Positions 16,731 through 28,181 of a DNA stretch of 54,834 bases are shown here, one piece after another. Both the position numbers and the translations under genes were made by a program. The notes beneath the pieces are model-generated. The model had not been told where the DNA came from and ran no database searches. It was given only the letters and a program-made list of their open reading frames with translations. The stretch spans positions 1 through 54,834 of the forward strand of contig DAHUZT010000015.1 in the NCBI GenBank assembly GCA_027315005.1, read 5' to 3'. Numbering within the stretch: the first letter of the stretch is position 1; each line of letters begins with the position of its first letter. The stretch is from Acidimicrobiaceae bacterium. GTDB taxonomy: Bacteria; Actinomycetota; Acidimicrobiia; Acidimicrobiales; RAAP-2.

Positions 16731-17298
16731 GGTTGCTCAAGGCTCGGAACGTGCCGTTGGAGGGAGCCCGCGCCCCAGCCAGAGCCTGGACGATGGTGCG
16801 TCAGTCGGAAATGGTCCACGGGCAAGGGGGGACTGCCCGAAGTGGACAAACATCGACTGGAACACCACCGACAGTGAGGGATGCGACACGGGGTCGATGC
16901 CTCCAAGGATGCGCTGGGACGACGGACCGTCCCTCCGAGCCCTCACTGTCGAAGGTACGCCGACCATACACCTCCGAGGGTGGTGCGGCAATTGCCGAGA
17001 AAGCGCTCCGAGGCCGGTATCGAGCTCCGGTGAACGGGCTGTTCCAGCGGTTGTACGGCACGGCGGCACCACCTTGCGAGGAGGCAGAGACCGTAGGAAC
17101 CGGCCTCGATGCACCGCTGCCGTCGAGGCTGGCGAAGCCCCATGCAGCCAGGCCCAATGGCCGCTCGCCACCCTCGGGATCTGGAGGTTTGCCGCCGCTT
17201 GCTGTCGGTCCGTCGCAGCGCCGACGCCGATTCCTCACGCGGTACCGTGTCCGTGATCGGTCGGGCCAGAGACCGGAGAGGACCCGAATACGCACGTG
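16731..17298. other. Intergenic region with a 12-bp inverted repeat
   Basis: About 570 bases between divergently transcribed genes. No frame in either strand looks like a real protein. A 12-bp perfect inverted repeat CGACAGTGAGGG (16869-16880) and its complement (16940-16951) are separated by 59 bases. They could form a long-loop structure or bind a dimeric regulator. Promoters for the STAS-GAF-ANTAR gene and the helicase gene must lie here. Confidence 0.5.
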
Positions 17299-20200
17299 AT
17301 GACCCCCGTCGAAGAGAAGTTGCTGAAGCGGCTGGTCGGGTCGAAGACCTTCGCCCGGGGTCGGGCCTACGCCCGCCAGGGTGCGGTGCGAAGCAGCCGG
17401 TGGACGAGCGACGGGACCCGGCTGGTCGGTGAGGTGCAAGGCGGCGATGTCGAGCCGTACGCCGTGGAGGTCACCGTGACCACGTCGAACGATGGCCGGG
17501 TGACCGAGATCGACGGCGCATGCACGTGCCCGGTCGAGTACAACTGCAAGCACGCGGTTGCCCTGGTGATTGCCGACGCCAGCCGGCGCTCGACGAGAGG
17601 TCCACTGTTGCACTTGGTCCGCGGGGATGGCCTCTCCGCCGACCAGAAGGCTTCCGACCAGACTGCGCCGGTGGCGGCTCCAGGGACCCACCGGGAATCG
17701 ATCGCGCCGCATCCGCCACCTCCGCCGCCATCCGACTGGGAACGCTCGCTCCGCTCGCTGGTCTCGGCCGACACGGCCGGTGGGGCCGAACCGTCGCCAG
17801 GCGACCTCGGCCTCCAGTTCGAGATGGTGTCAACACCGCACACCACCCAGCGCCGATCGGCCACTCCGACCTCTGGCATCCAGTTGCGTCCGGTCGTCCG
17901 CAACTACAGCCAGAACTGGGTCAGGACCGGCATCTCGTGGTCACGCCTGGATCACCAGTACTCGTATGGGCAGCCGTCGCTCAACTCGAAGAGGCACCTC
18001 ACGATCCTCACCGAGCTGCTTGCACTGAGCCGGCTGTCGAGCCCCCGGAGCTACTACGCCTCGCCCGACCAGGCGGTCTGGCTCCAGGTCATCAACAGTC
18101 GGCGGCTTTGGGACCTGTTGCACGAGGCCAGGGACCTGAGGCTCCCGATGCTGCTGGCCGGGCGCCAGGCCGCACCGGTCGACCTCCGACCCGCTGCCGC
18201 CCAGGTGACGGTCGACGCCATACGCGACGAAGCAGGAATCATGCTCCGGCCTCGGGTCGTCGCCGACGGCCAGGAGTTGCCGCTCGGATCGGCGCTGTGG
18301 ATCGGCCAGCCGGCCCACGGCATCGCATGGTGGGGTCCTTCCCACGACGCGCCGGCGAACTCAGCCCGGCTCTCCCTCGCCGCCTTCGAGGCACCGATCG
18401 ACGACAGCGTCCGGACGTTCCTCGCGACCAGTGCCGTCCTGATCCCCCCTCGCGACGAGCAGCGGTTCCTCCTCGACCTCTATCCGGTTCTCCGGAGGAG
18501 GATCGCGGTCGATTCGAGTGACCGGTCCGTCGAGCTCCCCGAGCTGCCGGCCGCACGTCTGGTACTCACCCTCCACCACAGCGAAGGCCACAAGTTGGAC
18601 CTGGCCTGGTCGCGAAGCGCGGTGGGCGCCACCTGGTCGGAGGAGCTCTGGGATGCCCCGAGCCGGATGGGCGACCGGGAGGCCGAGGACCTCATCGTCC
18701 ATGCAGTGACGTCGGCCACAGCCGGGGTGACCGGGCTGTTGGAACCCACCCTCTTCGGGGAGCGCCTGGCCCCCCGGGCCACGCTCACCGGTATGGCCGC
18801 GGTGCGGTTCGCCTCGGAGGTGCTCCCTGCGCTGCAGCGCATCGACGGGGTGGAGATCGAACAGCACGGGGAGATGCTCGAGTACCGGGAGTACGTCGAG
18901 GCTCCCATCGTGAGCCTCGGTGGCTCCCAGTCGAGCGACAACGACTGGTTCGACCTGACCGTCACCGTGACGGTTGACAACGAGAACGTCCCGTTCGCCG
19001 ATCTCTTCGTGGCCCTTGCCGAAGGTCAGACCCACCTGATCCTGCCGTCGGGGACCTTCTTCTCCCTCGATCGCGACGAGCTCCACCAACTCGCCGGGCT
19101 GATCGCCGAAGCCCGCGAGCTCGACGAACATGCCGGCGAGAGCCTTCGGATCAGCCGCTTCCAGGCCAGCCTCTGGGAGGACATCCAGCGGCTCGGTATC
19201 GTCACCGCGCAGGCCCGCGAGTGGGAACAGTCGGTGCGGGCCCTCAGCGATGCGAACAACCGGATCGAGCACCCTGTTCCGGACATGCTCCACGCAACCC
19301 TCCGGCCGTACCAGCTGACCGGTTTCAACTGGCTGGTCTACCTCTTCGAGCACCGCCTGGGCGGCGTCCTGGCCGACGACATGGGGCTCGGCAAGACGAT
19401 CGAGGCACTGGCGCTCATGTGCCACACCTGGGAACAGGGGCTGACCGAGGACCCTTTCCTCGTGGTGGTACCGACCAGCGTGGTCGGCAACTGGGCGGCC
19501 GAGTGCCGCCGGTTCGCCCCGGATCTCACCGCCGTCACCGTCACCGAGACGGAGAAGCGCCGGGGGATGTCCCTCGCCGAGCTGGCCTCCGATGCCGATG
19601 TGGTGATCACCTCGTATGCCCTGTTCCGCATCGAATACGACGCGTACGCGGCGATCGACTGGGCCGGCCTCTTCCTGGACGAGGCGCAATTCGCCAAGAA
19701 CCGGGGCTCCCAGGCCTACCGCCGGGCGAGGATGCTGCCTGCGCCGTACAAGGTGGCGATGACTGGGACCCCGATCGAGAACAACTTGATGGAGCTGTGG
19801 TCGTTGCTCTCGATCGCAGCGCCTGGACTCTTCCCGAGTCCGGACCGGTTCGCCGACCACTACCGGACACCGATCGAGAAGAAGAGCGATACCGACCGCC
19901 TCGCCCAGCTCCGGCGCCGGGTCCGTCCCCTCATGTTGCGCCGGACCAAGGACCAGGTCGTCCGCGATCTCCCCGAAAAGCAGGAGCAGGTCCTGGAGCT
20001 CGAACTGCAACCGAAGCAGAAGAAGCTCTATCAGACCTACCTCCAGCGGGAGCGTCAGAAGGTGCTCGGTCTGCTGGGCAACGTCCAGAAGAACCGGTTC
20101 GAGATCTTCCGCTCGCTGACACTGCTGCGCCAGGCCAGCCTCGACCTTTCACTGGTCGACGCCAAGCACGTCAACGTTCCCTCCACCAAGCTCGACGCCC

Positions 20201-20685
20201 TGATGGAGATCGTCGAAGAAATCGCCGCCGACGGCCACCGGACCCTTGTGTTCAGCCAGTTCACCCGGTTCCTCACCCTCGCCCGCCGGCGGATCGAGGA
20301 CGCCGGGATCGAGCACTGCTACCTGGACGGGGAGACCCGCAAGCGCGAACAAGTCATCGAGGAGTTCCGGAGTGGCACTGCACCCGTGTTCCTCATCAGC
20401 CTCAAGGCCGGCGGTTTCGGCCTCAACCTGACCGAGGCCGACTACTGCGTCATCCTCGACCCGTGGTGGAACCCGGCAACCGAGGTCCAGGCGGTCGACC
20501 GGGTCCACCGCATCGGCCAGACCAAGAAGGTGATGGTCTACCGGCTGGTGGCCAAGGACACCATCGAGGAAAAGGTCATGGCGCTGAAGGCCAGAAAGTC
20601 GGCACTATTTGCCAACGTCATGGACTCCGGTGAGTTCACGTCCGGAGCGATGACGGCCGCCGACATCCAAGAGCTCCTGACCTGA
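17299..20685 (+). CDS. SWIM zinc-finger SNF2/Rad54-family helicase
   Basis: A 1128-residue Swi2/Snf2 ATPase. Near residue 75-90 a SWIM zinc finger is visible (CTCPVEYNCKHAVALV, CxCx5CxH). A middle region of unknown fold (residues 180-640) follows. The ATPase core has ADDMGLGKTIEAL (Walker A, near 694), LFLDEAQFAKN (DEAQ motif II), AMTGTPIENNLMELWS (motif III), LMLRRTKDQV, and in the second lobe VFSQFTRF, LISLKAGGFGLNLTEAD and VDRVHRIGQ (motif VI). Such enzymes move along DNA and remodel protein-DNA complexes; bacterial SWIM-SNF2 proteins resemble HepA/RapA-class helicases but lack RapA-specific domains. GTG 17296 directly before ATG 17299 is an alternative start. It is not in an obvious phage-defence cluster. 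Confidence 0.92.
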   Translation: MTPVEEKLLKRLVGSKTFARGRAYARQGAVRSSRWTSDGTRLVGEVQGGDVEPYAVEVTVTTSNDGRVTEIDGACTCPVEYNCKHAVALVIADASRRSTRGPLLHLVRGDGLSADQKASDQTAPVAAPGTHRESIAPHPPPPPPSDWERSLRSLVSADTAGGAEPSPGDLGLQFEMVSTPHTTQRRSATPTSGIQLRPVVRNYSQNWVRTGISWSRLDHQYSYGQPSLNSKRHLTILTELLALSRLSSPRSYYASPDQAVWLQVINSRRLWDLLHEARDLRLPMLLAGRQAAPVDLRPAAAQVTVDAIRDEAGIMLRPRVVADGQELPLGSALWIGQPAHGIAWWGPSHDAPANSARLSLAAFEAPIDDSVRTFLATSAVLIPPRDEQRFLLDLYPVLRRRIAVDSSDRSVELPELPAARLVLTLHHSEGHKLDLAWSRSAVGATWSEELWDAPSRMGDREAEDLIVHAVTSATAGVTGLLEPTLFGERLAPRATLTGMAAVRFASEVLPALQRIDGVEIEQHGEMLEYREYVEAPIVSLGGSQSSDNDWFDLTVTVTVDNENVPFADLFVALAEGQTHLILPSGTFFSLDRDELHQLAGLIAEARELDEHAGESLRISRFQASLWEDIQRLGIVTAQAREWEQSVRALSDANNRIEHPVPDMLHATLRPYQLTGFNWLVYLFEHRLGGVLADDMGLGKTIEALALMCHTWEQGLTEDPFLVVVPTSVVGNWAAECRRFAPDLTAVTVTETEKRRGMSLAELASDADVVITSYALFRIEYDAYAAIDWAGLFLDEAQFAKNRGSQAYRRARMLPAPYKVAMTGTPIENNLMELWSLLSIAAPGLFPSPDRFADHYRTPIEKKSDTDRLAQLRRRVRPLMLRRTKDQVVRDLPEKQEQVLELELQPKQKKLYQTYLQRERQKVLGLLGNVQKNRFEIFRSLTLLRQASLDLSLVDAKHVNVPSTKLDALMEIVEEIAADGHRTLVFSQFTRFLTLARRRIEDAGIEHCYLDGETRKREQVIEEFRSGTAPVFLISLKAGGFGLNLTEADYCVILDPWWNPATEVQAVDRVHRIGQTKKVMVYRLVAKDTIEEKVMALKARKSALFANVMDSGEFTSGAMTAADIQELLT

Positions 20686-20754: not shown

Positions 20755-22275
20755 CTAAGGCTGCGCCGGGACCCGCTGGGGTGGAGGCGGTCCGACGTAC
20801 CGCGCTGACGGGCGGATGAGGCGGTTGTGAGACGCCTGTTCCATGACGTGGGTGGACCACCCGATCGTGCGACCGGTCGCGAAGGTCGGGGTGAACATCT
20901 CACGGGGGATGCCGCAGGTGTGCATCACCACTCCGGCATAGAATTCCACGTTGGTGTAGAGCTGGCGCCCCGGCTTGAGATCGGACAGCACGTCGACCGC
21001 GGTGCGCTCCACGGCTCGGGAGAATTCCACCAGCGGACCGCCGAGGGACTCGGCCACCGAGCGCAGGAACAGCGAGCGTGGATCATCGGTCTTGTAGACG
21101 CGATGGCCGAAGCCCATGATTCGATCTCCCTGTTCGACGGCATGGCGGATGTACGACTCGGCCCGATCTTCGGTACCGATGGCATCGAGCATGTCAAGCG
21201 CTCGACTGGGTGCTCCACCGTGGAGCGGACCCGACAGCGCTCCAATTGCCGCCACGGTCGCCGCTGCCAGATCGGCGCCCGTCGAGGTGACGACCCGAGC
21301 GGTGAAGGTCGACGCATTGAAGCCATGGTCGATGGTCAGGATCATGTACTGCTCTATCGCCCGTGCATGTAGCGGAGTTGGCACCTGTCCCGTCAACATG
21401 AAGAGAAAGTTGGCCGCACACCCAAGGTCGTCCCGTGGTTCGATCGGGTCCTTTTCCTCCCGCAACCGGTGAACCGCGGCGAGGATCGTCGGTACCACCG
21501 CACAGATCACGAGGGCTTGGTCTTCCAGTTCATCTGGTCCGATGTCGCGCGTCGGTCGCCAACCGAGCTCGCCGCCGAGGACCGAGACAGCCGTTCGCAG
21601 AACATCGAGTGGTGTTCCGAGCGGTGCCAGCACTGGCAGCAGTGAGCTGAGCCCGGGCGGGAGGGTGCGGCGGCGACACACCGCCTCTCGGAATGCACCC
21701 GAGGCAGCCGGATCCGGCAGCTCTCCGCGGAACAACAGGTGCCACACGTCTTCGAACGACCGCTGCTCGGCCAGGTCGATGGCCGAAAACTGCCGGTAGT
21801 GGAAGAAGCCCTCCTGCCCACGGACGTCCCCGACGGAGGTCTCGGCCACGACCACGCCCTCGAGGCCACCGGGCGCATCCACGCTTGCCTCGGCGGCTGG
21901 GCGAATGCGGGCGACACCCATGAGGTCGCGCAGTGAGACGACGCCGACCAGGTCATCCCCGCTGACTACGGGCAGATGCCGGTAGTGATGTGCGGTCAAA
22001 CTCGACCAGGCTGCATCCACCCGCTCATTTGGGCTCAGCACGTCTGGGCGGGCGGTCATCCAGAGTCCGACCGCCTCGCAGTCGGCATCGCCGTCGGTCG
22101 CCAGAGCCCGGAGGAGATCTCGCTCGGTGAGGATTCCCACCACCTTGGAGCGCTCGGTCACCACCACCGAACCGATACCGGCCCCCTGCATCAGGCGGGC
22201 GGCCTCGGTGAGCGAATCGCTGCTCGCGCACGTGATTGCGGGAGAGGTCATGAGATCGCGAACGACAGTTTCCAT
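20755..22275 (-). CDS. Citrate synthase family enzyme with N-terminal CBS domain pair
   Basis: A 506-residue fusion. Residues 1-120 are two CBS modules (TVVRDLMTSPAITCASSDSL, VVGILTERDLLRAL; MTARPDVLSPNERV, LVGVVSLRDLM), which usually bind adenine nucleotides. The rest is a citrate/2-methylcitrate synthase (condensation of acyl-CoA with a 2-oxoacid). Catalytic His residues are seen in GPLHGGAPSRAL and GFGHRVYKTDDPR. The usual catalytic Asp is replaced by Glu in YTNVEFYAGVV, a substitution I recall from some actinobacterial members. The C-terminus (NRLIRPSARYVGP) is typical. ATG 22275 is chosen because a -10-like CATAGT lies 7 bases upstream, implying a leaderless transcript; GTG 22284 is an alternative. 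It is divergent from an HTH-citrate synthase gene, which suggests regulation by that protein and allosteric control by nucleotides. Confidence 0.9.
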   Translation of the reverse strand: METVVRDLMTSPAITCASSDSLTEAARLMQGAGIGSVVVTERSKVVGILTERDLLRALATDGDADCEAVGLWMTARPDVLSPNERVDAAWSSLTAHHYRHLPVVSGDDLVGVVSLRDLMGVARIRPAAEASVDAPGGLEGVVVAETSVGDVRGQEGFFHYRQFSAIDLAEQRSFEDVWHLLFRGELPDPAASGAFREAVCRRRTLPPGLSSLLPVLAPLGTPLDVLRTAVSVLGGELGWRPTRDIGPDELEDQALVICAVVPTILAAVHRLREEKDPIEPRDDLGCAANFLFMLTGQVPTPLHARAIEQYMILTIDHGFNASTFTARVVTSTGADLAAATVAAIGALSGPLHGGAPSRALDMLDAIGTEDRAESYIRHAVEQGDRIMGFGHRVYKTDDPRSLFLRSVAESLGGPLVEFSRAVERTAVDVLSDLKPGRQLYTNVEFYAGVVMHTCGIPREMFTPTFATGRTIGWSTHVMEQASHNRLIRPSARYVGPPPPQRVPAQP

Positions 22276-22282
22276 GCCCTCC

Positions 22283-22312
22283 ACTATGGGCGCACCAGCG
22301 GCTCGCTGTAAA
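22283..22312 (-). promoter_or_regulatory. Predicted promoter of the CBS-citrate synthase gene
   Basis: On the minus strand TTTACA (22312-22307) is separated by 18 bases from CATAGT (22288-22283), and ATG 22275 follows after 7 bases. The -35 hexamer is the reverse complement of the hexamer proposed for the opposite gene. Inferred from sequence only. Confidence 0.55.
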
Positions 22313-22335
22313 CATTGATCATGTCAATATACAAT
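22307..22335 (+). promoter_or_regulatory. Predicted promoter and MerR-style spacer dyad of the HTH-citrate synthase gene
   Basis: TGTAAA (22307-22312) and TACAAT (22330-22335) are 17 bases apart, and ATG 22343 begins 7 bases after the -10, so a leaderless mRNA is likely. The dyad ATTGA-N5-TCAAT (22314-22328) lies inside the -35/-10 spacer, where MerR-family regulators bind. The downstream protein has a MerR/excisionase-like HTH. Confidence 0.55.
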
Positions 22336-22342
22336 CGTAGGG

Positions 22343-23491
22343 ATGGAAGGCATGGTGTCGAGCGATGAGGCCGCTCGCAGACTCGGGGTCAAGGTGACCA
22401 CGCTCTATGCCTATGTCAGCCGGGGCATGCTGGAATCCCATCGCGACCCGGCCGGGAAGGGCAGCCTGTTCGAGCTCTCCGACATCGAGAGCTTGGCTGC
22501 CCGTAGCCGGGGTGCTCGCCGGTCGGAGAGCCGCTTGGCAACGATCGCGACCGGGGTGACCCAGCTCAGACACGACGAGGGTCCCCTCTACCGGGGTCGC
22601 GCTGCCACCTCGCTTCTGGCACAGATGACGTTCGAGGAGGTCACCGGGCTCCTCTGGGAGACCAGCGCGGACGGCGACTGGTCGGTTCCTGACCTTGGCG
22701 TGTGTCCCTTGAGCGACACCCTCGAACGCATGCGGTGGGCACTCGTCCTGTGTGGTGCCACCGACCAACTTCGGGCGGACCTCAGACCGTTGTCCGTGAT
22801 CCGCGCCGCTCGACGCGTCATTGCCGGCCTGGTCGACGTGGTTGGTCCCGCACCGTCCGGTGAAACCGGCTCGACCCCGATCTCGGAACGGTTGGCTCAC
22901 CGTTTGGGCGGATCGGCACCTGCCTCGTCGGTCGCAGCCATCAATGCTGCCCTCATCCTCATGGCAGACCACGAGCTCGCCACCTCCACCATGGCTGTGC
23001 GCATCGCTGGATCGGTGCGGGCCGACCTGTATGACGCGCTGACGGCCGGGCTGGTCACCCTCGCAGGGCCACTTCATGGTGGTGCCAGTAAGCAGGCCTG
23101 CGAGCTGTTGGTTGCCGCCGAACGCGAAGGAGCGCAACGAGCGCTGAACGATGCTCTCCGGGAGCATCGCCTCCTCCCCGGCTTCGGACATCTGGTCTAC
23201 AAGAGCGGTGACCCACGCGTTCGTGGCCTGCTGCCATTGGCGGAGCAACTGCTGAGCGAAGACCGGCGCAACCTCCTGCGTGATGTACTGCGGCTGGCCG
23301 CTGACCATGATCTTCCGCTGCCCAACTGCGATCTGGCACTGGCCGCACTGAGCTGGGGAACCGGAATGCCACCCGACACCGGTCGCACGATCTTTGCAGT
23401 AGCCAGAATCGCCGGATGGACGGCCCACTACTTGGAGGAACTCGCGGAGCGCCCACTGCGCTTCCGAGCCCGCGCCGTCTATGTCGTCTAG
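22343..23491 (+). CDS. Citrate synthase family protein with N-terminal helix-turn-helix DNA-binding domain
   Basis: A 382-residue protein. Residues 4-55 look like a MerR/excisionase HTH plus wing (SSDEAARRLGVKVTTLYAYVSRGMLESHRD, then GSLFELSDIESLAARSRG). The remainder is a citrate-synthase fold. His residues of the active site are kept (GPLHGGASKQA; GFGHLVYKSGDPR) and an Asp sits in LPNCDLALAAL, but GHR has become GHL and the flanking Tyr/Phe of the Asp motif is changed. The C-terminus RFRARAVYV keeps Arg. Weak or altered catalysis is possible; a ligand-sensing regulator that reads oxaloacetate, acyl-CoA or citrate is the attractive inference. ATG 22343 or ATG 22352 can start it. It is divergent from the CBS-citrate synthase gene, 67 bases from that start. 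HTH-citrate synthase fusions are annotated elsewhere, but I know of no established role. Confidence 0.85.
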   Translation: MEGMVSSDEAARRLGVKVTTLYAYVSRGMLESHRDPAGKGSLFELSDIESLAARSRGARRSESRLATIATGVTQLRHDEGPLYRGRAATSLLAQMTFEEVTGLLWETSADGDWSVPDLGVCPLSDTLERMRWALVLCGATDQLRADLRPLSVIRAARRVIAGLVDVVGPAPSGETGSTPISERLAHRLGGSAPASSVAAINAALILMADHELATSTMAVRIAGSVRADLYDALTAGLVTLAGPLHGGASKQACELLVAAEREGAQRALNDALREHRLLPGFGHLVYKSGDPRVRGLLPLAEQLLSEDRRNLLRDVLRLAADHDLPLPNCDLALAALSWGTGMPPDTGRTIFAVARIAGWTAHYLEELAERPLRFRARAVYVV

Positions 23492-23666: not shown

Positions 23667-25112
23667 TCAGGACGGCGTGGAGATCGATCCGGCCGGGGGT
23701 ATCTGGCCTGGACCCGTCGCCGAGCAGGCTTGTGGGAACGACGCCGGGGCAGCGAGGAGCGGCGGCTCGGCGAAGCTCGGCCGGGAGCGATCGATGAAGT
23801 CCATCAGGTCGTTCGCATTGGCATCCCGGTAGGTGAGCGCCGGAAGGTTCCACTTTCGCTCCACCATGCTGAGGATCGACGTGTGGTCGTGGACGACACT
23901 GCTCACGAAGTCCGGCTTGGCGAACGGGGAGATCACGACCGCAGGCACGCGAATGCCAGACTGGGCGAAGCCGTTGTAGAGCGAATGTCCGGGAGGCACG
24001 ACCGGAGCCACGGCGTCGGGAGGGATGGCAGCGGGTGGCGGAACGTGGTCGTAGTAGCCGCCGCCTTCGTCATAGGTCCAGACGAGAAGCGTCTTCGACC
24101 ATGCCGGGCTGCTCATCACGGCATTGATCGCCGATGACGACCATGCCTCGCCTCGCGCGATGTCGGAAGGATTCTCCTCGGAAGCGTTGTTGAAATTCGG
24201 ATCGATGATGGCGAACCCGGGCAACGTTCCCGCCGCGCAGTCAGTGAAGAAGGATTCGAACGAGACGTTGTCGGGCGAGGTGCTCGCCGGGTCTGCCAAG
24301 TAGATCCCCGTGGTCGGCTGGTTGTGGTAGTAGTCGCGCCAGGGGATTCCGTAGTGGTCGAGCTCGTCGAAAATGGTCCCGTTCGGCGGTTGGGTGGACA
24401 GCTGCGACAGGTCGTCACTGGTGAGGCCCAGCGAAGTAGCGCCGATCAGGTACCGGCGGTTCGGATACGTCGGGCCGAGGACGGAGGAGAACCACCGGTC
24501 GGCCAGCGGGAAGGTGGACGCCAGCGAGTAGTAGAAGGGGAGGTCAGTCTCTGTCCAGTAGCCCATCGCCGTGGCTCCGGGGTAGGCGTCTCCGAACGGC
24601 GGCGCGGCGACGAAGCCATCCATGGCTCCCCCGGCCCACGCGGTGTGCGTCGTGGTCCAGCCGTTCCATCCTCCCCCCGAGACCTGGCAGTCGGTCGGCA
24701 TGTGGAAGGCATGCTGGATCGAGCCGTTCGGATAGGGGTTGGCGGCGGTGGGAAGCCCGTTCGCCCCGATGGTGAAGCCGTCGCCCCGCGGGGTCTGCCC
24801 GGCGCCCCGGCCGAGCATCCCAAGGTAGTTGTCATAGGAGTGGTTCTCCTGCATCAGCACCAGGATGTGCTCGATCTCGGGCATGGTGTCCGTCCCGGCA
24901 GGGAGATCGGGGAAAGGGAGCGAACCCGGGGCCCTGCGTGCATTGCGATGGGCGAGGCGGCGGAGCTGGTTGACGGTGTCGGCCCTCTCGGCCTCGATGG
25001 CACGGGCCGTGCGGCCATGTGAAAGGGCCTCGCCGCCGATGACGCCTCCGACCGCGACCGCCCCAGCGGCGATGCCTCCCCGCAGGAGGTCTCGGCGGGA
25101 GATCCGGTTCAT
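23667..25112 (-). CDS. Tat-exported phospholipase C / acid phosphatase-type phosphoesterase
   Basis: A 481-residue exported enzyme. The N-terminus MNRISRRDLLRGG with a hydrophobic segment is a twin-arginine signal. The catalytic family motifs are HILVLMQENHSYDNYLGML near residue 83 (Asn-His equivalent of QENRSFDHYFG), YDEGGGYYDHVPPP and SPFAKPDFVSSVVHDHTSILSMVERKW. This is the superfamily of bacterial phospholipases C and AcpA acid phosphatases, which hydrolyse phosphodiesters outside the cell. ATG 25112 follows AAGGAGG at an ideal spacing and overlaps the stop of the RCC1 gene (ATGA), so the two are translationally coupled. Substrate (lipid, teichoic acid or phosphate ester) is unknown. Confidence 0.92.
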   Translation of the reverse strand: MNRISRRDLLRGGIAAGAVAVGGVIGGEALSHGRTARAIEAERADTVNQLRRLAHRNARRAPGSLPFPDLPAGTDTMPEIEHILVLMQENHSYDNYLGMLGRGAGQTPRGDGFTIGANGLPTAANPYPNGSIQHAFHMPTDCQVSGGGWNGWTTTHTAWAGGAMDGFVAAPPFGDAYPGATAMGYWTETDLPFYYSLASTFPLADRWFSSVLGPTYPNRRYLIGATSLGLTSDDLSQLSTQPPNGTIFDELDHYGIPWRDYYHNQPTTGIYLADPASTSPDNVSFESFFTDCAAGTLPGFAIIDPNFNNASEENPSDIARGEAWSSSAINAVMSSPAWSKTLLVWTYDEGGGYYDHVPPPAAIPPDAVAPVVPPGHSLYNGFAQSGIRVPAVVISPFAKPDFVSSVVHDHTSILSMVERKWNLPALTYRDANANDLMDFIDRSRPSFAEPPLLAAPASFPQACSATGPGQIPPAGSISTPS

Positions 25113-27874
25113 CGGTGACCTCCTTGGCCGGGCAGGTTTGCCATGGTTGTCCCGGTTCCCCGGGGACCAAACGGCCCGACGGTGATACGACGTGGTGGGC
25201 TGGAGGCGACGTGACCGGCCGCATCGGTCGTCACGCTCTCGAGGCGGTACCTGCCGGCTGCCAGAGCGCGCACGTGCCACTCGGCGATCCACCCGTCGAT
25301 GGTGAGAGTTGCCGTGGCGATGGTCACCGGAGTCCGGATGGACCCACCCGAGATCTGAAAGGAGACCGAGGAAACCGCGGCCCTCCCGACGGCCGACGCG
25401 TCGAGCACGACCGTGGCACCGCGCGCCACTTCGGTCGGTCTCCCCGGCAGAATGATCCGGGTGGTGAGCCGAGGGTTGCGCACGGTCACCACGACCGCTG
25501 GGCTCGAGGCCGTCTCGCCGGAGGTGTCGGTTGCCACGCTCTGGAGCCGGTAGGTCCCGTTCTGCACGTCGGAGGAAGCCCAACCGGCCAGCCAACCGTC
25601 GACGGTGGGCGTGGCCGTGGCGATGGTCACCGGGCCGGTGAGTCGGCCTCCCGAGAGCACGAAGTGGACAGTCGCCACCCCGAGCGGGCTCGTCGCCGCG
25701 GCGTCGAGCCACACCCCACCGGCGAGGACGGCCCCCGCACCGGGCAGGCCAACGGTGGTGGTTGGCAGCGGTGTGGTGGTGAGGAGGGCCAGACTGCCCT
25801 CTGCGTCGGGGCCGCTCGCTACCGTGATGGCCCGTGTGCCTCCGGGCAGGTCCACCAGGGTCGGGAAGGGCACCCGGGACTGGACGGTCCCGTTGCCTAC
25901 TTGGCCGGAGCGGTCGTCGCCGAATGCGTAGAGGGCCCCCGTCGAGGTGAGCACCAGACTGTGGGCGGCGCCCGCCGCGATTCCGGTGGCCAGCACCCCG
26001 GCCGGCAGGCGCACCGGAATCGGCACGTCGGTACTGAGGGTACCGGTTCCGAGCTGACCATCGCCGTTCTCCCCGAAGGCGTAGACCTGGCCGGTGGCAG
26101 AGAGGGCGAGACTGTGGGCACCGCCGGCGGCGATGGCGACGATCCGCATGCTGGTGAGCAGACCGACCTCGACCGGGACGTTGCTGTCGGTCGTGGAGCC
26201 GTTGCCCAGCTGGCCGTACCCGCCGGCGCCCCAGGCGTAGACCCGGCCGGTGGCAGAGAGCGCGAGACTGTGGGCACCGCCGCCCGAGATGGCGACGAAC
26301 CGCACTGCTGAAGGCATGCTGACCACGACCGGCACCGTGCTGTCGGTCGTGGAGCCGTTGCCCAGCTGGCCGTACCCGCCGGCACCCCAGGCGTAGACCT
26401 GGCCGGTGGATGAGAGCGCGAGGCCGCCGTCGCCGGTGGCTGCGATCGCCGTCGCCGTCACGCCAGGCGGCAGCTGCACGGCAACCGGCACAGCGCTGGC
26501 CGAGGTGGTGCCGTCGCCCAACTGCCCATCGGCCCCCTGCCCCCAGGAATAGACCGTACCGGCGGCCGTCAGGACTATGACGTGGAACCCACCCGCAGCG
26601 ATCGCGGTGACTGTCGTCCCGACCGGCATCGAGGCTTGTACTGGAATGCCGCTCTCGGTCGTCGTACCGTTGCCGAGCTCACCGTCGGAGTTGTAGCCCC
26701 AGCCGTAGACTGCGCCTGCGGAGGAGAGGACGAAGGTGTCCTCCACCCCGCTGGCGAGGGCAGTCGGGACGACGCCGGCCGGGAGACCGCGGAGGGGCGC
26801 AGGCGTCGAGCTGTCGGTTGACGCCACGTTGCCCACTTGACCGATCTGTCCCCAACCGAACGCGTCTCGGGGGACGAGCGGTGGGCCGATGGAGATCACG
26901 AGCGGGCGGGACACCGCCGTCTCGGCCGGATCCGAGCTGTCGGTCACCCTCAGCTCGACGGTGCTGGTTCCCGCCACCGTCGGGGTACCCGAGAGGGACC
27001 CTTGTGTCGCATCGAGGTGCAACCCCGGCGGTAGCACGCTCCCGGGGGCCAGTGCCCAGAGATAGGGAGGCTTGCCTCCCACCGCGTCGAGCTGCGTGTC
27101 GTAGGAGGCGCCGACCGTTGCCGGCGGGAGTGAGGCGGTGATGACAGAGAGCGGTCCGGGGACGATGGTTGTCGAGGTCACCACCGGTGCCGGGTTGGTC
27201 GTCAGGGTGCAGGGTATGGAGGACTCCCCGAGGACCGGGAGCATCGCGGTGATGGTGAGCGGTCCGGGTGACACCTCGACCGTTCCTGCCGCACCGGCGA
27301 CGAACGGTCCGACCGAGACGGGCGCCAAAGTGATCGATGCCGCCTGACCACTGGTCAGACCCACCGAGAATGCCTGGGGCGAACTTTCCCCGTTCAACAT
27401 CGGTGGTGAGGCATCGGTGGCGGTGGCGTCCTCCACGACGACCGACCCCGACAAGCGCGTCGAGCCCAAGGAGACGATCGTAGCGACGACTGATGAAGGC
27501 ACGACAAGTGTCGTCTGGTAGTCACTGACCGTCATCGTGGATCCTGCATCGACGCTCGCCGGGGCCGAACCGGCCACGGTCGCCGCGAACGCTTCGGTCC
27601 CGAGCACCGGCAATGTGCAATTGAAGGTCGTCGCGATCGGAGGGCTGGAGATCAGGGTTGCCCGGGATGGCGCCGCTGAGCGATGAGCGGCGTGTGGCGT
27701 CACCGCCGCGGCCGGCCCTCCCGCACCGGTCGCCGATGCAATCACCAAAACGACGGCGAGCATTCCGACCGATCGTCGGCTCGCTGTGCGTTCCAACAGA
27801 CGCCCCGCCTCACTTCCGCGTCGAGCCGGAGGAGCGACGATTCTCTGCCTGAGATCTCGCAGCCTTCGGATCAC
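25109..27874 (-). CDS. Secreted DUF6801-like/Ig/RCC1-repeat surface protein
   Basis: A 921-residue exported protein. GTG 27874 is preceded by AGGGGGA with a good spacing. An Arg-rich stretch leads to the signal segment SVGMLAVVLVIASATGAGG. Then comes a region with FNCTLPVLGTEAFAATVAG and GPLTITAMLPVLGESSIPC, like DUF6801, and a putative Ig domain (VLPPGLHLDATQGSLSGTP). About seven RCC1 repeats of 50-52 residues follow (YAWGAGGYGQLGNGSTTDS appears twice), predicting a beta-propeller. Finally two copies of a beta domain occur (TIATATPTVDGWLAGW; TIATATLTIDGWIAEW). No catalytic motif is visible, so a carbohydrate- or protein-binding surface role is likely. The stop overlaps the phosphoesterase start, implying a joint function. 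Confidence 0.88.
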   Translation of the reverse strand: MIRRLRDLRQRIVAPPARRGSEAGRLLERTASRRSVGMLAVVLVIASATGAGGPAAAVTPHAAHRSAAPSRATLISSPPIATTFNCTLPVLGTEAFAATVAGSAPASVDAGSTMTVSDYQTTLVVPSSVVATIVSLGSTRLSGSVVVEDATATDASPPMLNGESSPQAFSVGLTSGQAASITLAPVSVGPFVAGAAGTVEVSPGPLTITAMLPVLGESSIPCTLTTNPAPVVTSTTIVPGPLSVITASLPPATVGASYDTQLDAVGGKPPYLWALAPGSVLPPGLHLDATQGSLSGTPTVAGTSTVELRVTDSSDPAETAVSRPLVISIGPPLVPRDAFGWGQIGQVGNVASTDSSTPAPLRGLPAGVVPTALASGVEDTFVLSSAGAVYGWGYNSDGELGNGTTTESGIPVQASMPVGTTVTAIAAGGFHVIVLTAAGTVYSWGQGADGQLGDGTTSASAVPVAVQLPPGVTATAIAATGDGGLALSSTGQVYAWGAGGYGQLGNGSTTDSTVPVVVSMPSAVRFVAISGGGAHSLALSATGRVYAWGAGGYGQLGNGSTTDSNVPVEVGLLTSMRIVAIAAGGAHSLALSATGQVYAFGENGDGQLGTGTLSTDVPIPVRLPAGVLATGIAAGAAHSLVLTSTGALYAFGDDRSGQVGNGTVQSRVPFPTLVDLPGGTRAITVASGPDAEGSLALLTTTPLPTTTVGLPGAGAVLAGGVWLDAAATSPLGVATVHFVLSGGRLTGPVTIATATPTVDGWLAGWASSDVQNGTYRLQSVATDTSGETASSPAVVVTVRNPRLTTRIILPGRPTEVARGATVVLDASAVGRAAVSSVSFQISGGSIRTPVTIATATLTIDGWIAEWHVRALAAGRYRLESVTTDAAGHVASSPPRRITVGPFGPRGTGTTMANLPGQGGHR
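26184..26420. repeat. Near-identical 156-bp RCC1-repeat unit pair
   Basis: The sequence starting at 26184 (CTGTCGGTCGTGGAGCCGTT) recurs at 26340, a period of 156 bp, equal to one 52-codon RCC1 repeat. Conservation at the nucleotide level points to recent internal duplication or gene conversion. Confidence 0.85.
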
Positions 27875-27955
27875 CGCCTGTCCCCCTCGCTCTTCACGTA
27901 CAACGGGCTGGAGGTACCTCCTCTCCACGGCCGGGTGTCCGTGGATCGGACCATA

Positions 27956-28017
27956 CCAACGATGCGCGGCTGGGCTGCGCGCCAAGCCAACGATGCGCGG
28001 CTGGGCTGCCCGCCATG
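27956..28017. repeat. Two 31-bp direct repeats
   Basis: Units 27956-27986 and 27987-28017 match at 29 of 31 positions. Each begins CCAACGATGCGCGGCTGGGC. The pair sits about 80 bases upstream of the RCC1 gene start and 200 bases upstream of the antitoxin gene, outside coding sequence. Confidence 0.9.
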
Positions 28018-28181
28018 GCACCTTTGCACGAGTGAACACCTGGTCAACGATGTGGTGTTCTCGGGTGCCATGATGCGAAGCCGCTTGTCCAGGTCACCGA
28101 CTGCCAGCCCTTCTCCCACCGCCGAGCACGGTGCTTCGCCGAGGCGCAGGTGGCCGGCAGGCGCGCGCGGGAGCACTTGGC

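Follow-up and report, generated by a model that had tools for sequence, protein, structure and literature searches.

Two divergent genes for proteins with citrate synthase (CS) folds, one of them carrying a helix-turn-helix (HTH) head, raise the question of whether an enzyme fold can serve as the transcription factor for its enzyme neighbor. They lie on contig DAHUZT010000015.1 of an Acidimicrobiaceae bacterium (assembly GCA_027315005.1), whose positions 1 to 54,834 make up the window, the whole stretch of DNA analyzed here. We verified both as long divergent frames (20755-22275, minus strand; 22343-23491, plus strand) arranged head to head with 67 bases between their two ATG starts, in agreement with the sequence-only reading that had singled them out. 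That reading proposed that the plus-strand protein, HTH-CS, had become a regulator for its partner, a CBS-citrate synthase fusion (CBS-CS). Our comparison strongly supports the proposal: HTH-CS is very probably a one-component regulator that binds a dyad in the shared promoter region, uses its CS pocket as a sensor, and controls the partner gene. The proposal gains from a conserved head-to-head pairing, from a near-invariant recognition helix, and from a dyad that exceeds shuffled expectation by far, has a single match to the family's form in its own genome, and stays at the CS gene where intervening DNA separates the pair.

The CS portion of HTH-CS gives a strong, partial match to Citrate_synt (184.2 bits, profile 146-350), and the head matches HTH profiles weakly (TIGR01764, 24.4 bits). 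An AlphaFold2 model, built from an alignment of 31 proteins and with a mean pLDDT of 92.3, confidently predicts that the N-terminal part is a winged helix attached to a CS fold: residues 4-60 run strand-helix-helix-strand-strand-helix, followed by a low-confidence linker (residues 59-64) and then a mostly helical CS domain. Foldseek returned 3hwk as the best match to this model (TM-score 0.73, 360 columns), and all 50 rows shown were CS or methylcitrate synthase structures. The fusion proposed earlier therefore holds, with HTH profiles below their cut-offs but a confident winged helix and CS fold in the model. MerR proteins carry a dimerization helix and an effector domain after their DNA-binding head. 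HTH-CS resembles the MerR family and the HTH_17 and excisionase domains in its weak profile matches and predicted order of strands and helices, and differs from the MerR family in that the CS domain replaces the dimerization helix and effector domain and in scoring under the curated cut-offs; its head is MerR-like and is not filed as MerR. The recognition segment T[LV]YAYVSRG is present in 10/10 aligned proteins from the window's phylum, Deinococcus, and alpha- and betaproteobacteria, and the near-invariant recognition helix is the best-conserved run of the N-terminal alignment. HTH-CS thus has a DNA-binding domain, as judged by weak profiles and the model, and a ligand-binding domain, whose pocket is recognized by conserved residues.

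The window's HTH-CS retains 7/7 CS substrate or catalytic positions, which we take to be those of the Thermoplasma numbering with their usual roles. Across 42 HTH-CS proteins (39 from the window's phylum, window included, and three from plasmids), His187, His222, Arg271, Asp317, Arg337, and Arg356 are kept in all 42 and His262 in 41, the sole sequence without this catalytic His being L093. The sequence-only reading had remarked that two active-site His and an Asp are kept and that the Arg of GHR is missing. This is correct (the window has GFGHLVY, not GFGHRVY), but we rejected the loss as a sign of lost catalysis because the position varies both in HTH-CS, with Arg in 10/42, and in partner CS enzymes, where 8 out of 30 sequences with coverage have A or P. 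Since all seven pocket residues are kept in 41/42 proteins, the enzyme pocket is probably the sensor. Against none of the NCBIfam models listed for CS and citryl-CoA lyase does HTH-CS reach the cut-off (for TIGR01800, 138 against 421.3).

Is the pair conserved? HTH-CS occurs in 17 of 60 relatives (E below 1e-40), and the fusion is therefore not a chance one. An adjacent head-to-head CS gene accompanies it in 13 of the 17, bearing out conservation of the pair; two of these 13, G003 and G007, show it as fragments only, and one further genome, G013, has a divergent CS gene that is separated from HTH-CS. We compared three sets of loci, in all of which start codons were picked by a simple rule and positions are approximate: 39 from the window's phylum, window included (41 minus L076 and L088, in which the N-terminus is missing); 80, mostly Streptomyces, that were the best 80 of a scan using the recognition-helix pattern and so are uninformative on helix invariance; and 10 plasmid loci, taken from 257 matching plasmid records. 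The adjacent divergent neighbor is a CS in 27/39 and 65/80 loci of the first two sets. An HMGL-like enzyme (homocitrate synthase/isopropylmalate synthase family) takes its place in 4/39 and 7/80; these fall in two groups, about 28% identical to each other, and those scanned (L075, L089, L099, L103, L142, and L162) are below curated NCBIfam enzyme cut-offs. Other neighbors account for 8/39 and 8/80, among them CS genes separated by extra DNA (L067 and L086), a contig end (L074), a DUF2332 protein (L068), a fumarase/aspartase relative (L166), and a CobW GTPase (L085, and by similarity L087 and L109). The divergent gene can thus be something other than CS.

Plasmid-borne HTH-CS genes extend this variety: they diverge from citrate synthases in Agrobacterium fabrum and Tsukamurella, from a “pyruvate carboxyltransferase” in two Deinococcus, from a 2-hydroxyacid dehydrogenase operon in two Comamonas, and from CoA transferases in Ewingella and Azospirillum; Paraburkholderia sprentiae has an upstream gene in the same orientation as HTH-CS, and the Cupriavidus record carries no annotation beside HTH-CS. 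On this gene-order evidence HTH-CS behaves as a local regulator would, rather than as an enzyme subunit. Three observations stand beside this. The HMGL-like partners of L099, L103, and L162, matched at family level only, may be Re-citrate synthases, in which case a non-homologous enzyme, possibly with the same reaction, would occupy the same regulatory slot. Siderophore uptake genes lie beside the CS/HTH-CS pair in A. fabrum pAt (L102, 5839-13107) and the Tsukamurella plasmid (L240, 4989-7117), a possible link to citrate as an iron chelator. At about 8159-8960 of L076 (G007:C146) both genes appear cut to their C-terminal parts, back to back, by deletion or assembly collapse.

A common dyad, YVTTGA-N5..9-TCAAYV, lies upstream of HTH-CS, including in proteobacteria and Deinococcus; examples are TAAACATTGATCATGTCAATAT in the window, TCAATATTGATTGAATCAATAT in a Streptomyces-like genome (L083), and TCAATCTTGATTTATATAATCAATAC in Agrobacterium (L102). 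Counting AAY[ACG]TTGA-N4..10-TCAAY[ACG], with one substitution allowed, from -200 to +40 of the HTH-CS start, we found it in 33/39, 74/80, and 9/10 loci of the phylum, Streptomyces-rich, and plasmid sets, against dinucleotide-shuffle means of 0.105, 0.36, and 0.09 and maxima of 1, 3, and 1. A stricter core without substitutions was present in 25/39, 61/80, and 1/3 plasmid loci tested, against means of 0.06, 0.38, and 0 in random windows of the same loci; shuffles and random windows together reject a chance motif. Seven genomes from the family to which the window belongs share a conspicuous block of about 23 bp, although the rest of the intergenic region has diverged among them. A repeat search at the locus gave only a 6-bp palindrome within the dyad and one unrelated pair. 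The dyad thus has the appearance of an operator-like site conserved at the promoter regions of HTH-CS itself and of its putative target.

The site is rare and follows HTH-CS. The window genome (3.06 Mb, 130 contigs, 92.96% complete) matches the family's form TNAAYRTTGATCANGTCAATR within three mismatches at a single place, 22309-22329 between the two genes, and its reversed control nowhere. The N3 and N6 forms are also absent from this genome, in which other spacers were not searched; with a single family-form match and none for N3 and N6, we rejected a wide regulon. In a sample of 296 genomes from the phylum, two spacer forms, searched with up to one mismatch allowed, occurred in 13 and 21 genomes, and their reversed controls in 1 and 3. 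Dyad forms were present in 21/30 genomes with HTH-CS (E<=1e-30) versus 13/266 others (Fisher odds ratio 45, relatedness ignored). Twenty of the 21 sites are just upstream of HTH-CS and the remaining one, in G134, is at the CS gene; one of the 13 others, G200, has an HTH-CS beside its site. Around the remaining matches (7 + 5 genomes for the two forms) the retrieved sequence shows no recognition motif of HTH-CS, and we take them as chance. CBS-CS genes without HTH-CS showed the dyad in 0/9 testable upstream regions (14 loci fetched, 10 with CBS-CS and 4 with a fragment or some other CS-like protein).

Loci in which the pair has been drawn apart indicate which promoter the site serves. In L067 (G013:C282, same genus) CBS-CS and HTH-CS diverge 2.7 kb apart, and the dyad is absent at the HTH-CS start and lies about 80-90 bp upstream of the likely CS start; L086, likewise a separated pair, has no dyad where HTH-CS begins but has one 54 bp upstream of the position at which CS probably starts. 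The dyad therefore serves the CS promoter and not only autoregulation. L067 can be regarded as a natural promoter-separation experiment, in which about 2.7 kb separates the two genes and the proposed operator stays at the CBS-CS promoter. Dyad spacing also varies with the protein: among 110 loci with both measurable, linkers of at most 58 residues go with N4-7 in 88/89 and longer linkers with N8-10 in 18/21, a relation retained after clustering at 60% identity (18/19 short, 7/8 long) and based on a cut at 58 residues that was chosen after seeing the data. This fits one dimer reaching two half-sites.

How does HTH-CS relate to known systems? One-component regulators with enzyme-derived sensors include the MocR/GabR aminotransferase type, BirA, and the ROK family, which join an HTH or winged helix to a whole enzyme fold, keep the pocket, and control an enzyme gene, often a neighbor. 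HTH-CS differs from these in its CS sensor fold, its MerR/excisionase-like head, and its operator YVTTGA-Nx-TCAAYV. It shares its fold and seven pocket residues with citrate synthase and 2-methylcitrate synthase (PF00285; 3hwk), in contrast to which it has an HTH head and scores far under the NCBIfam enzyme cut-offs. The comparative evidence is strong that HTH-CS is an enzyme-fold one-component regulator, and we met no earlier account of this sensor fold in that role: among the matches listed from the open-licence literature, none described HTH-CS as a regulator. Caulobacter CitA is likewise a citrate synthase with a regulatory role, but a different one, described as control of the cell cycle that does not depend on enzymatic activity; the term “helix-turn-helix” is nowhere in the text of that paper (PMC7083601). 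In Streptomyces locus L107, Suc_Fer-like and histidine kinase genes lie downstream of HTH-CS, matching the order SCO5831-SCO5830-SCO5829 described in PMC9739823, and we therefore take SCO5831/SCO5832 of S. coelicolor to be an HTH-CS/CS pair by gene order, not by sequence. These genes are named citA3 and citA4, both putative citrate synthases (PMC12323332), and sco5831 is placed under the tricarboxylic acid (TCA) cycle as a citrate synthase-like protein (PMC7324645).

Several points weigh against the regulator reading. The head scores under Pfam cut-offs (HTH_17, 26.6 against 27; MerR PF00376, 23.9 against 28.2; PF13411, 19.9 against 21.6), and the HTH alone found only SoxR among PDB sequences, at E 0.15. 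We devised the dyad pattern with sequences already in view and relaxed it once, to accept C in the half-site, when the first plasmid loci had been read, making its counts something other than a blind test; the loci counted are also related. No dyad lies near the HTH-CS start in 13/129 loci, including the fumarase locus L166 and two CobW loci; two of the 13 have the dyad at the CS gene. The linker/spacing relation follows subfamily lines. The assignment of promoters is weak, since the promoter scan of the window missed the TACAAT -10 element discussed below and gave a second, overlapping minus-strand candidate (22361-22334). MtrA is reported to bind between SCO5831 and SCO5832, with late increases in the expression of both when mtrA is mutated (PMC12323332). 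Lastly, intact catalytic residues also fit an active enzyme.

This last point is the basis for considering a trigger enzyme, in which HTH-CS would still be a citrate (or other acyl-CoA/2-oxoacid) synthase and would toggle between catalysis and DNA binding with substrate supply. Such a role is compatible with regulation, differing on catalysis, and we consider it possible while leaning against it. It would account for the intact CS fold of the model and for the kept residues, with Asp in 42/42 HTH-CS although partners carry Glu, but a need to sense ligand would by itself keep the same residues in place, a synthase usually fills the partner slot already, and the position following the catalytic His is free to vary, with that His itself missing from L093. 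Caulobacter citB complements E. coli gltA and the neighboring citC does not (PMC7083601), a result that would weigh the same way if CitC carries an HTH. That both proteins are enzymes, or subunits of a mixed CS oligomer, and that the HTH-like head is a docking module without DNA binding, is highly improbable: two CS folds are indeed encoded side by side, plasmid records call such proteins “citrate synthase family protein” or “citrate synthase,” and SCO5831/SCO5832 are treated as a pair of citrate synthases, but the recognition helix is the most conserved N-terminal run and the dyad goes with HTH-CS and not with the CS enzyme, persisting with non-CS partners.

The dyad might instead be an operator bound by some unlinked regulator (MtrA or a LysR protein, say) that has HTH-CS as just one of its targets. 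The reported MtrA binding at SCO5831/SCO5832 speaks for this, yet the MtrA consensus GTAACCNNNNNGTAACC (PMC12323332) is unlike the dyad, strict dyad sites in the 296 genomes concentrate beside HTH-CS, operator spacing follows HTH-CS linker length, and CBS-CS without HTH-CS has no dyad; we judge this explanation highly improbable as well. Scarcely credible is a structural DNA or RNA feature or a mobile repeat, as the AT-rich, palindromic sequence might suggest, given a single family-form match in the whole window genome, the placement of dyads near start codons, and a word that hardly changes between the window's phylum, proteobacteria, and Deinococcus.

How, then, might HTH-CS act as a regulator? 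We suggest that its CS-fold domain would form the usual CS dimer and so set two MerR-like winged helices on YVTTGA-N5..9-TCAAYV in the shared promoter region. Ligand in the oxaloacetate/citrate pocket and the acyl-CoA site would close the CS lobes and alter DNA binding; lobe closure of citrate synthase is well studied. Because the pocket residues are kept, oxaloacetate or citrate, probably with acyl-CoA, would be the likeliest signals, which fits the substrates of the alternative partners, likewise 2-oxo, hydroxy, or CoA-bound acids. The window's dyad (22312-22330) runs from the TTTACA of a candidate TTTACA-18-CATAGT promoter for CBS-CS to a TACAAT. A dimer on this site would block the HTH-CS promoter and occupy an activator position for CBS-CS; since the site touches a candidate -10 of one gene and a candidate -35 of the other, the likeliest wiring would be autorepression with ligand-dependent control of the second citrate synthase. 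With TACAAT 7 nt before the ATG, the HTH-CS transcript is possibly leaderless. The distance from dyad to candidate -10 varies among relatives; MerR operators place their dyad between -35 and -10 elements with a long spacer of 19-20 bp.

We lean slightly toward a broader interpretation: HTH-CS would be an unrecognized, phylum-crossing family of transcription factors in which a whole, substrate-competent CS reads oxaloacetate/citrate and acyl-CoA and controls whichever divergent enzyme of C4-C6 acids or acyl-CoA is present. The slot would be occupied by a CitA-type Si-citrate synthase, a homocitrate-synthase/Re-citrate-synthase-like enzyme, a CoA transferase, a 2-hydroxyacid dehydrogenase operon, or perhaps a fumarase, and transcription would thereby report directly on the point at which the TCA cycle is entered. 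If HTH-CS is a regulator, proteins annotated as citrate synthases in Streptomyces, Rhizobiaceae, Burkholderiales, Deinococcus, and others would have to be reinterpreted as controlling a second citrate synthase or related enzyme, and putative additional citrate synthases, S. coelicolor SCO5831 among them, would be explained. The citrate synthase fold would join the enzyme folds that serve as gene switches, offering a sensor of oxaloacetate or acyl-CoA that can be tested. With an explicit operator, the regulator claim is directly testable.

What, finally, is the partner? The claim that two CBS domains and a citrate synthase share one protein is confirmed: CBS-CS matches CBS twice, at 92.3 bits, and Citrate_synt at 379.3 bits across the whole profile (1-357/357). 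It exceeds the cut-off of NF009005 (335.3 bits against 332) and has the NVE motif, both marks of the CitA type. Its closest PDB match is Bacillus subtilis CitA (2c6x, 299 bits), ahead of Mycobacterium tuberculosis CitA (6wgy, 230 bits); it shares the NF009005/PRK12350 group with both, and the tandem CBS domains are extra relative to them. The catalytic Asp is replaced by Glu (TNVEFY), which we regard as a group trait and not damage because all 30 partner sequences that extend over this position have Glu and TNVEFYA also occurs in 2c6x. The window genome has three Citrate_synt genes, the divergent two and an ordinary one on contig C90, and on these profile matches CBS-CS is therefore its second citrate synthase, of CitA type.

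The CBS fusion had been read as part of the pairing. This did not survive comparison, and we rejected the fusion as its key: CBS-CS occurs without HTH-CS in 10/14 control loci, and only 12/92 adjacent CS partners in the 39- and 80-locus sets have CBS domains. NVE-type CBS-CS genes without a neighboring HTH-CS are seen in relatives at L223-L229 and L231-L233; CBS control of a second citrate synthase would therefore be older or wider than the pair. In L070 (G006:C105, 6430-8175, minus strand) a stop splits CBS-CS into a CBS part and a CS part in consecutive frames, and HTH-CS is open.

Table 1. Positions of the divergent pair, its domains, and its intergenic elements in the window.
Feature	Position	Strand	Basis or remark
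HTH-CS protein, 382 aa, proposed one-component regulator with citrate-synthase-fold sensor	22343..23491	+	frame, profiles, model
MerR/excisionase-like winged helix, residues 1-66, recognition segment TLYAYVSRG	22343..22540	+	profiles, alignment, model
Citrate-synthase-fold domain, about residues 73-382, seven canonical substrate/catalytic residues retained	22559..23488	+	
CBS-CS protein, 506 aa from ATG at 22275, CBS x2 and CitA-type citrate synthase	20755..22275	-	
CBS-CS alternative start, GTG	22284	-	
CBS domain pair, approximate extent	21919..22263	-	two stretches, best residues 5-59; end of second estimated
Citrate synthase domain of CBS-CS	20806..21867	-	profile search
Proposed operator TAAACATTGATCATGTCAATAT	22309..22330		core ACATTGA-TCATG-TCAATAT at 22312-22330
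Candidate -10 of HTH-CS, TACAAT, 7 nt before ATG	22330..22335	+	inferred by eye
Candidate -35 of CBS-CS, TTTACA, abuts operator	22307..22312	-	promoter consensus scan
Candidate -10 of CBS-CS, CATAGT, 18-nt spacer	22283..22288	-	promoter consensus scan

Two further frames lie near the pair in the window. An SNF2-family helicase frame of 1129 aa (17296-20685, plus strand) adjoins the CBS-CS gene, and a 976-aa frame (25109-28039, minus strand) combines an RCC1 propeller, Ig-like domains, and DUF6801 in a possibly secreted protein.

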